The notes under the pieces were generated by a model. The model did not search any database, was not told the origin of the DNA, and saw only the letters and a program-made list of their open reading frames with translations. Below are positions 29,380-32,638 of a stretch of 64,000 bases of DNA, piece by piece. The first letter of the stretch is position 1, and every line of letters begins with the position of its first letter. Both the position numbers and the translations under genes were made by a program. Source of the stretch: Niebla homalea (lineage: Eukaryota > Ascomycota > Lecanoromycetes > Lecanorales > Ramalinaceae); contig JAHGAU010000012.1 of assembly GCA_019925105.1 (NCBI GenBank), positions 744,001 through 808,000 of the forward strand, in the 5' to 3' direction.

Positions 29380-30393
29380 TTACAAGACCAACCTCACCTT
29401 CAGCTTTTCCCCTTTCACTATCTCCTCCTCCTTCGCCATCAATTCCGGCATATCCCATGTGCAATTGATATACCTCCCCGCCAACCACTCCCTCTTCTCC
29501 TTGGTCAGATACACTAAGGTATCACCACAGATCTCCGTCGTCTCCACAAATATAAACTTCAACTCCTCGGGCGGCTCCCCCCCACCCAAAATATCCGTGC
29601 CAGGCACATTCCCCGGATGCACCGAGTACGCCAACAGCCCTTCCTTCCCATACTCGGCGTCCAAAAACTCCATCAACCGCAGCGTCGCCAGCTTGGAGGT
29701 CTGATAGCCGCTCAACCCAGGTCCACGCAGGTGCGCGCCGACGCTCGAAATGGCGATGAAGGTCTTGTCCTGCCCTCCTCCTCCTCCTCCTTCTCCTCCT
29801 CCTTCTCCTCCTCCTTCTCCTCCTCCTTCTCCTCCTCCTCCTCCTGCTGCCAGCAGCAACGGCACAAAAGATCTCGCCACGAGATGCAGGCCCTTGATAT
29901 TGACCTCCCAGTTCCGCCACCAGGCGTCCGGATCGCCCTCGACCACCGTCCCGCGCGAGAGCACGCCCGCGTTGTGGATGACAATGTCCAACCGCCCGCC
30001 GAACCGGGCCGACACCTCCTTCGCCCCGGCCTCCACGCTGGCGCGGTCGGTGCTGTCGAGTTCGATGGCGAGGATCTGCGGGTCAGCAGCAGCAGCAGCA
30101 GCAGCAGGAGGTCGTTTCGCCTCCGCGGCGGCGGGTCGCATTTCCCGGATCGTGCTGGAGAGGTCGGAGCGCGCGGCGATGGCGATGCGGGAGGCTCCTG
30201 CGCGGGCGTAGGAGACCGCGATGGCTTTGCCGATGCCCTTGGAGGCGCCCACGATGAGGACGGATTTCCCCGAGAGGTTGGCGGTGAGGGGCGAGATGGC
30301 GGGGTAGGTGTCGCTGTGGACGAGCTTCGTGGTCGTGTAGTCGCCTGGTCCGGCGAGGGGGTTGGGGCGCGGGTCGGTGGGAGAGGGAGGCAT
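29380..30393 (-). CDS. Short-chain dehydrogenase/reductase with repeat-encoded Gly insert
   Basis: A single-exon SDR of 337 aa (ATG at 30393). The Rossmann motif GASKGIG is at residues 49-55, HNAG at about 140-143, the catalytic Ser in ISSVGA near 216 and YQTSK (Tyr230, Lys234). Preference for NADP is suggested by AARS after beta-2 but not proven. Two low-complexity inserts are notable: a run of eight Ala near 97-104 encoded by a CAG/CTG-type repeat, and a Gly/Glu run (residues about 184-207, GGGE units) encoded by a 12-bp repeat. The latter falls in the loop before the strand with the catalytic Ser, where SDRs normally have only a few residues, so the active-site fold should survive. The substrate is unknown. 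Confidence 0.85.
   Translation of the reverse strand: MPPSPTDPRPNPLAGPGDYTTTKLVHSDTYPAISPLTANLSGKSVLIVGASKGIGKAIAVSYARAGASRIAIAARSDLSSTIREMRPAAAEAKRPPAAAAAAADPQILAIELDSTDRASVEAGAKEVSARFGGRLDIVIHNAGVLSRGTVVEGDPDAWWRNWEVNIKGLHLVARSFVPLLLAAGGGGGEGGGEGGGEGGGEGGGGGGQDKTFIAISSVGAHLRGPGLSGYQTSKLATLRLMEFLDAEYGKEGLLAYSVHPGNVPGTDILGGGEPPEELKFIFVETTEICGDTLVYLTKEKREWLAGRYINCTWDMPELMAKEEEIVKGEKLKVRLVL
29775..29846. repeat. 12-bp coding minisatellite (ctcctcctcctt) inside the SDR gene
   Basis: About five imperfect copies of a 12-bp pyrimidine-rich unit on the + strand. On the coding (minus) strand they encode Gly-Gly-Gly-Glu units. Because the unit is a multiple of three, copy-number change keeps the reading frame. 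Confidence 0.9.
30084..30107. repeat. CAG/CTG trinucleotide run encoding poly-Ala in the SDR gene
   Basis: About eight agc/cag triplets on the + strand, read as Ala codons on the minus strand within the SDR coding sequence. Confidence 0.85.
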
Positions 30394-30832
30394 ATCGAGC
30401 AATATGGATCAAATGGGACTTTCGCTGGCAGTATGTGGTGACTGGCTTTAGGGGATCAGAGGTAAGTGGTGGAGCAGTTTGTGACGCAAGACTGAAGAGT
30501 GACACGACCTCGCTTAACGCAAAAAGATTTAGTATACTGATGCATTATTAAGCCGCGTCAAGATCGAGCGCACAATGATGCAACGATTTAACAGATCGCT
30601 GGGCAGAGATGTCATTCGGCACGCGCTGCGGAGTTAAGATCGTCAGCTTTGGCACAGAAGGGCCACGCTCGCCATATTGAGAGGACCCATTAAGCAGTAA
30701 TTGTCTAGCCATTATCGGTTCATTAGCTATCAATCATTCACATATCAGGCCCCCTGTATTGGGTAGCCTGCTCCATCCGATGCCGGAAACCTAAAAGGTG
30801 GCAAGTCAAGCATCGTCGCTTGTTTCTCCCAG
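30394..30832. other. Intergenic upstream of the SDR gene
   Basis: About 440 bases between the SDR start codon and the stop of the RIB7-fusion gene, both on the minus strand. It holds the SDR promoter and the 3' region of the fusion gene; no element recognised. Confidence 0.45.
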
Positions 30833-32638
30833 TCACGATGAAGCAACACCGGTGAATTCTTGCCCGTGTCTCATCGGGACCTGGGATTGCGCCATCTGAG
30901 GAGCAGGTACATGGTTCTGGAACACCATTGGAGCAGGGATTCTTCCAGCCATTACCGCGTCTGGACCCAGGGGCAACCACTTGACGTCCTCGAATCTGAC
31001 GAGTGGATGTGGCCGGCCGGTATGATCAGGCCTTGCCACAGGGTTGACCGCCACACCCCCTCTCCCTAAATACGTTGGGGCAACGGTGACGACCACGGAA
31101 TTGACAAAGCGTGAGTTCTCCGGCTGCAGCAGATCGCTGATTACCATTGCCCCGCCCTCAATCATCACGCTCTTGATGCCTTCTGCGGCCAGAGCCTTGA
31201 GGATGGCTTCCCAACGGAGCCGATAGCGAGTGTCGAACTGTGTCAGACCGAGGTATTTTCCGCCATAGTGCTTGAGCATCTCGAGTCTGTTCGGATCCAT
31301 CGCGAAGCCTGGCGCGATGATGACCCAAGGTGCCCTGCCTTTGCCCTTGGTCACTGTTTGAATGATCTTAGATTGCGGTGTGATCATCCATCTGGCATTT
31401 GGGTCGATGATCACCGGTCTAGGTTGCCCATCCCACCCGAGGCCTCCGTAACCACCAACGCCTTGTAGTCTACAGTTCAGGGCCGGGTCATCTGCTGTAG
31501 CCGTGCCAACGCCAATGATAAGAGCTTCGTGCTTTGACCGTAGATAATGTGTCATAGCTTTGGACTCGAGGCCGGAAAGATGTGTTTGCATGCCGGGAGC
31601 GAGGCTGAGGCACGAGTCCAGCGAGGTAGCATACGTAAGCGTCACATGTGGGAGACCGTCTGGTGAAAGAGAAGTATCATGGGCGGGTAAATATGGATCA
31701 AGGTGTTCCCTTAGGTCTGGCGGAAAGGCTAAGGCATCTGGCGGGTATATGTCTGGTACTGGCAATGAAGCTGGGGCTAACGCTGGTGTGTTTATATTGG
31801 TCAATGCCGGATCCAGGGCCGCTTGCTGTACGTCCATGGGCATAGAGACGTCTTGGTCGTCCCTTACAATTCCGTTCCCGTGGTCATACTTGTAACCTTC
31901 GTGCACCCTCAATTCATCTTTTCGTTCTTGACGCCAGTGTTGTGATGCATTTCTTACGTCATTTCGATTCAGGTACTTTCCTCCAGCATCACAAAGCTTA
32001 TCGTAGTCTTCATTCATGACTGTGAATACGGAGGCGGGCATGTATCCCTTCATGACCTCCGATCGGGCAATGTCCATCAACACGCTCGTCCTCTTGATCT
32101 TGTCGATATGGTCCAAGTCATGGGAATGCTGTGCATCATCGCCGATCCTCATGACTGTATAACCATGATATCCCCCTTCGTAGCGGATGGTCTTGAGTCG
32201 CATCTGACAGGTTCCACCTTCCCTGATCTGCTTCTTTCGGGTAGGCTGCCCTTCCCTCCGAGGTGTGTCGAGCTTGGGTGTGTACGTGGGGCGCTGCAGA
32301 CGACAGGCATAGTAATCTGTAATGTATTTTCCAGTCTTGTCGATGCCAGCCTTGTGTTGCCGCACCCATACATTGTCGACATATGGCCAGTATCGTTCAA
32401 ACTCGTCCACCTGAAGCTCAATCTTCTCCTTGACTTCAAATAATCGTTGCCGCATATCTGCTAGCTGCTGGGGCGGATGGTGTAGATCGCGCAGGGTCCT
32501 GGTGGGGTCTGGCGGTGCGGGAAGCTGTCGTGGGCTCTGTAATGGCTCGATAGAGCTTGTAGGAGGAACACCTTGAGGCGGTGTGTCCAAGCCCATGTCG
32601 GCAGCATCCGAGGTTGAATGAGTTGCAGACATTGTCAT
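30833..32638 (-). CDS. RIB7: RIB7-type riboflavin reductase fused to a putative FAR1/WRKY-GCM1-like zinc domain
   Basis: One uninterrupted frame of 601 aa. Residues about 330-575 are the RibD_C/Rib7 reductase (2,5-diamino-6-ribosylamino-pyrimidinone 5'-phosphate reductase, second step of fungal riboflavin synthesis), with HVTLTYATSLDSCLSLAPG, SKAMTHYLRSKHEALIIGVGT, DDPALNCRL and IEGGAMVISDLL. Residues about 75-260 are not part of normal Rib7: they show VDNVWVRQHKAG, YYACRL (C112), GGTCQMRLK (C144) and AQHSHDLDHIDKIKR (H171, H173). This C-X31-C-X26-H-X-H arrangement resembles the DNA-binding domain of FAR1/Mutator-like transposases and the WRKY-GCM1 group. A Pro/Ala-rich linker (270-310) joins the two. 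Standalone Rib7 is about 250-290 aa. In-frame ATGs at 31843 and 31837 could start a Rib7-only product. The Rib7 call is firm; the N-terminal assignment is by motif only. Paf1 lies upstream on the same strand. Confidence 0.88.
   Translation of the reverse strand: MTMSATHSTSDAADMGLDTPPQGVPPTSSIEPLQSPRQLPAPPDPTRTLRDLHHPPQQLADMRQRLFEVKEKIELQVDEFERYWPYVDNVWVRQHKAGIDKTGKYITDYYACRLQRPTYTPKLDTPRREGQPTRKKQIREGGTCQMRLKTIRYEGGYHGYTVMRIGDDAQHSHDLDHIDKIKRTSVLMDIARSEVMKGYMPASVFTVMNEDYDKLCDAGGKYLNRNDVRNASQHWRQERKDELRVHEGYKYDHGNGIVRDDQDVSMPMDVQQAALDPALTNINTPALAPASLPVPDIYPPDALAFPPDLREHLDPYLPAHDTSLSPDGLPHVTLTYATSLDSCLSLAPGMQTHLSGLESKAMTHYLRSKHEALIIGVGTATADDPALNCRLQGVGGYGGLGWDGQPRPVIIDPNARWMITPQSKIIQTVTKGKGRAPWVIIAPGFAMDPNRLEMLKHYGGKYLGLTQFDTRYRLRWEAILKALAAEGIKSVMIEGGAMVISDLLQPENSRFVNSVVVTVAPTYLGRGGVAVNPVARPDHTGRPHPLVRFEDVKWLPLGPDAVMAGRIPAPMVFQNHVPAPQMAQSQVPMRHGQEFTGVASS

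Follow-up and report, generated by a model that had tools for sequence, protein, structure and literature searches.

The archaeal protein RbkR carries an HTH domain N-terminal to a riboflavin kinase and is termed 'bifunctional as gene regulator and enzyme' (PMC8305020). Review passages on flavin supply cover yeasts, Ashbya and bacteria, and its control in filamentous fungi of the classes considered below seems to be little known. Rib7, the 2,5-diamino-6-ribosylamino-4(3H)-pyrimidinone 5'-phosphate reductase of riboflavin synthesis, ordinarily stands alone in fungi (PF01872; solved chains 9l1h, 9l1f and 4ha7). Here we describe a gene of Niebla homalea, located in a stretch of 64,000 nucleotides (the window; contig JAHGAU010000012.1, positions 744,001 to 808,000), in which the whole Rib7 reductase domain is preceded, in the same reading frame, by about 300 residues that include a zinc domain. 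The fused protein resembles RbkR in that one chain carries a DNA-binding-type domain on the N-terminal side of an enzyme, which in both cases belongs to the same vitamin pathway (PMC8305020). This likeness is one of anatomy only: fold, enzyme and domain of life are different, and while RbkR is described as a gene regulator, regulation by the fused Rib7 is only supposed. No account of the fusion was found among the titles and abstract openings of open-licence papers, and its extra domain appears to be undescribed in that searchable literature.

Architecture and conservation of the fused protein

The fused frame occupies 30833..32638 on the minus strand, to which the coordinates of all its parts refer. 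In the open reading frame listing, its 601 codons run without interruption from 32638 to 30836, with the stop codon extending to 30833; the plus-strand reading of the same interval contains many stops. Given the frame's own base composition, the probability of such an open frame is about 1e-11, which excludes a chance origin, and the source genome contains a full-length match to the 601-residue protein. A preliminary description of this DNA had proposed that the frame joins a zinc domain to Rib7, leaving the strand unnamed, and this is borne out.

The protein starts with a variable tail (residues 1–54; 32477..32638), which has a mean column conservation of 0.35 in the 121-row alignment described below and a predicted local distance difference test (pLDDT) score in blocks of 35 to 44 over residues 1–40. 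The tail is followed by the putative zinc domain with a helical extension (residues 55–260; 31859..32476), delimited from a model of residues 46–262 and its structural matches. A linker (residues 261–304; 31727..31858), with pLDDT below 50 over residues 263–302, leads into the Rib7 reductase (residues 305–565; 30944..31726). The Pfam profile RibD_C (PF01872) matches residues 330–562, its core, with 99.1 bits against a cut-off of 24.1 and spans profile positions 1–196 of 197; the reductase looks complete, as first described. At E ≤ 1, RibD_C is the only Pfam family to match the protein.

A search with the whole protein gave 493 matches; figures on fused relatives refer to the 120 listed among them, which together with the window protein form the 121-row alignment. 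The listed relatives are 525–631 residues long, cover 87–100% of the query and all contain PF01872. Those with names include Protoblastenia, Psora, Mycoblastus, Puttea, Lecanora, Caloplaca, Xanthoria, Heterodermia, Hypocenomyce, Lignoscripta and others, which we take to be lichen fungi. The relatives thus point to a lichen-forming Lecanoromycete, not to the Dothideomycetes first suspected. Public records label several of these proteins Rib7 reductase or hypothetical protein, and the frame is therefore already present in databases. All four putative zinc ligands are kept in 121/121 rows, while a strict text search for three fixed motifs together succeeds in 99 of the 120 relatives, whereas in the other 21 one or more of the motifs is not present in its exact letters. 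Mean identity to the window protein is 79% over residues 60–260 and 75% over residues 326–565, but 33% over residues 261–325, across the linker, and the zinc domain is better conserved than the Rib7 part in 107 of the 120. The drift of the linker between two well-held domains argues that both halves are under constraint within a single frame.

A gene model that wrongly merges two neighbouring genes, an alternative raised from the outset, would be most at home where the linker contains a methionine from which Rib7 alone could start, and 78 of the 121 rows have one. In the other 43 the linker offers no such methionine (38 of 109 by a second method of cutting the linker, with 11 of the 120 relatives lacking the motifs used), so that no independent Rib7 start is available in those species. 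Since the joined frame, uninterrupted in the window, also recurs in 120/120 listed relatives and the ligands are invariant, we reject the artefact, which is scarcely credible, and regard a single, real fused protein as practically certain from the sequences.

The three best solved Rib7 chains, 9l1h, 9l1f and 4ha7, align over residues 307–534 with E values of 7e-33 or lower. When 44 invariant Rib7 columns are defined from 23 unfused Rib7 proteins and two solved chains, the window protein keeps 43, the sole change being isoleucine to leucine at 373. Across 18 lichen-type and 12 other fused rows, the majority of these columns are likewise kept without exception or almost so; the clearest departures are at columns 340 (5/18 and 3/12), 335 (17/18 and 6/12) and 373 (16/18 and 10/12). 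The source genome (50.6 Mb, 52 contigs) contains one RibD_C match, besides matches to the lumazine synthase, GTP cyclohydrolase II and riboflavin synthase families. With this single match, the genome probably has no Rib7 other than the fused protein, which therefore must work; its Rib7 part would be enzymatically active.

The zinc domain

The model of residues 46–262 has a pLDDT of 91.4 and a predicted template modelling score (pTM) of 0.83. In structural alignments, WRKY domains are its best matches, with middling Z-scores, followed by GCM and yeast AFT2; WRKY, GCM, AFT2 and NAC chains are all among the 50 VIA structural rows. We take plant WRKY proteins, GCM and yeast AFT2 to belong to one WRKY-GCM1 superfamily. 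The predicted zinc ligands are C112 (32303..32305), C144 (32207..32209) and the H-x-H pair H171 and H173 (32120..32128), with the C-x31-C-x26-H-x-H spacing originally reported. Beyond the alignment of fused proteins, these C-C-H-x-H ligands are kept in 26/26 wider rows, in fused and unfused relatives alike. Together with the predicted beta-sheet fold, they make it very probable that the zinc domain has a WRKY-GCM1-type fold.

At the place inferred for the WRKY recognition strand lies VWVRQHK (residues 90–96; 32351..32371). This place follows from the alignment of fused and unfused proteins and from a weak WRKY profile match of the unfused protein P0142 (its residues 42–64), which covers the same stretch. 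The strand is basic, near-invariant as VWVRQH[KR] in lichen fungi and similar in most others; a basic strand containing tryptophan is kept in most of the wider rows. WRKYGQK is the signature of WRKY domains proper. The fused protein has VWVRQHK in its stead and stays below the cut-off of the WRKY profile (PF03106); among 47 aligned rows the sole match to that profile, in an unfused protein, has an E value of 0.18 and 12.5 bits against a cut-off of 21. The domain also differs from the superfamily in its long inter-cysteine loop, in the extra helices after H-x-H and in the attached enzyme.

Two further loci of the source genome resemble this domain. L002 (G000:C26:533372-533596) is a diverged second copy that repeats the C, C, H-x-H pattern and seems to be interrupted by an intron; the only RibD_C match of the genome lies elsewhere. 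L004:643-1890 (G000:C31:385347-385580) encodes a protein of 415 residues that exceeds the AFT (30.3 bits) and FAR1 (29.0 bits) cut-offs and is likely, by its profile matches, to be a zinc transcription factor of the WRKY-GCM1 superfamily.

Distribution and history of the fusion

A search with the N-terminal part, restricted to proteins of 0.55–1.75 times the query length, gave 26 matches of 153–543 residues. They include fused proteins from Aspergillus heterothallicus (P0126) and from Penicillium waksmanii (P0127, whose Rib7 part stops short), five other fused proteins (P0123, P0124, P0134, P0138 and P0139), and fragments. Three others, P0141, P0142 (Xylona heveae) and P0143 (Lophiotrema nucula), share the zinc domain and all four ligands with the fused protein but have no Rib7 part; P0143, named C2H2-type by its source, instead has C2H2 profile matches that remain below the cut-offs. 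The best match of P0142, and that of P0143, in the source genome is the fused gene.

The search with the Rib7 part, of which 120 of 2196 matches were listed, had a similar length limit that left fused-length proteins outside. The listed matches include unfused Rib7 of Aspergillus, Penicillium, Dothideomycetes, Leotiomycetes, one Sordariomycete, Xylona and Sarea (the genera being assigned to classes by us), with any fused copies there hidden by the length limit, and 93 of the 116 proteins returned only by this search measure 255–300 residues. A search for the fusion in Dothideomycetes had been suggested; the Rib7 proteins listed from them are unfused, in a search that covered no proteins of fused length. 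A. heterothallicus has an unfused Rib7 (P0221, on a contig of 510,839) beside the fused P0126 (contig of 241,641), and because the contigs differ and their positions in the tree are distant we take them as two genes. In Xylona heveae the parts are separate genes, P0142 with the zinc domain (contig of 733,607) and P0171 with Rib7 (contig of 970,080).

When 57 Rib7 domains are placed in a maximum-likelihood tree, the 31 classed as fused form one clade (support 99/99) that also contains one domain-less row, Bachmanniomyces. Unfused Rib7 of Sarea and Xylona adjoin this clade, their order being weakly supported, and the Dothideomycetes come next. The approximately unbiased (AU) test does not reject a constraint that groups the fused rows to the exclusion of Bachmanniomyces (p-AU 0.10). 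The topology fits one fusion after the Xylona line had split off, perhaps with one loss. Unfused Rib7 proteins of Aspergillus and Penicillium (P0221, P0157, P0247 and others) cluster with those of Leotiomycetes and one Sordariomycete and lie at a distance from the fused Rib7 found in these fungi (P0126). A constraint that unites them with the fused rows is rejected (p-AU 0.0003), for a group that was named after the tree had been seen and that excludes Xylona and Sarea. These unfused proteins may go back to an ancient duplication or may have been transferred from one class to another. The tree of the zinc domain did not resolve its branching.

Two members of the fused clade stand out. P0153, from Bachmanniomyces sp., is a Rib7 of 335 residues without the zinc domain, through secondary loss or a short gene model. 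P0159 is labelled as a Sphingomonadales bacterium and is probably fungal DNA in a bacterial bin.

Proposed function and its alternatives

Rib7 enzymes are dimers. The gene product would be a Rib7 whose N-terminal zinc domain binds DNA, and its dimer would pair two such domains, an arrangement common among DNA-binding proteins. That an active Rib7 and a DNA-binding WRKY-GCM1-type domain are united in one polypeptide we consider probable; DNA binding by the zinc domain itself is probable to a similar degree, and the protein would also bind zinc and be present in the nucleus. The simplest view is of an enzyme that additionally visits DNA. In a bolder one, the Rib7 part would sense its own substrate or NADPH, and the protein would tune the expression of flavin genes, or of iron or redox genes, to flux, as RbkR does with a riboflavin kinase. 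Regulation of transcription by the fused protein is a tentative proposal, somewhat short of an even prospect, and the protein is perhaps a eukaryotic counterpart of the archaeal RbkR. Where the fused form is the only Rib7, every enzyme molecule would carry the DNA-binding domain. The fused protein could then be a eukaryotic trigger enzyme, with Rib7 itself the DNA-bound regulator, which arose when a host WRKY-GCM1-type regulator was joined to it in an ancestor shared by the lichen-forming Lecanoromycetes and the Eurotiomycetes, and which is the sole Rib7 here and perhaps across lichen fungi; this, too, is possible but not favoured.

Alternatively, the N-terminal domain may have kept its fold and lost DNA binding, serving as a zinc-stabilised scaffold for Rib7 stability, for oligomerisation or for contact with a partner, for example a further enzyme of the pathway. 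The constant attachment of the domain to Rib7 in the listed fused relatives, and the probable status of the protein as the genome's only Rib7, would suit such a role. It agrees less well with the preservation of the ligands, and mostly of the basic strand, in unfused proteins as well, and with the resemblance of the unfused P0143, by name and sub-threshold C2H2 matches, to a regulator. We regard the scaffold as somewhat unlikely. The reverse alternative, in which the Rib7 part is catalytically dead and only senses a ligand for a regulator, could apply in A. heterothallicus, where the unfused P0221 might free the fused Rib7 from catalysis. The near-complete set of invariant residues in the window protein, most of them also kept throughout, or nearly so, in the 12 rows that do not belong to the main lichen group, and the lack of another RibD_C match in the source genome make it very improbable.

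An active, DNA-binding fused Rib7 would be compatible with a further alternative, which concerns origin: the domain may derive from a FAR1- or Mutator-type transposase captured by the Rib7 gene. The preliminary description had named WRKY-GCM1 and FAR1 side by side; ligands and predicted fold support the former, while Pfam and structure matches give the transposase no specific support. One unfused relative among the 47 aligned rows, P0143, reaches FAR1 (PF03101) at an E value of 0.042 with 15.0 bits against a cut-off of 28.1, which 0/47 rows attain. The N-terminal part of the window protein has no Pfam match even at E 10, the MULE domain has no match among the 47 rows (the window protein yielding RibD_C only), no transposase domain is matched in the fused protein or the three unfused relatives, and the top structural rows are WRKY domains. 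A transposase origin is thus unlikely. The source genome contains six MULE transposase matches (L011–L016), each with four to five in-frame stops, mostly TAA, like old decayed copies.

If the proposed function is correct, a step in making vitamin B2 may communicate directly with genes, in a eukaryotic parallel to RbkR built from unrelated parts, and a Rib7 bearing a DNA-binding-type domain would open direct access to the question of how flavin supply is set in many lichen fungi and in some Aspergillus and Penicillium relatives. A drug-target discussion lists Rib7 with the riboflavin genes that humans are said to lack (PMC6068542), a context in which its true architecture matters for homology cloning.

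Also on the minus strand of the window, at 29380–30402, lies the frame of a short-chain dehydrogenase, which contains a long stretch of the GGGGEGGGE type at 29740–29860, encoded by TCC-type repeats.
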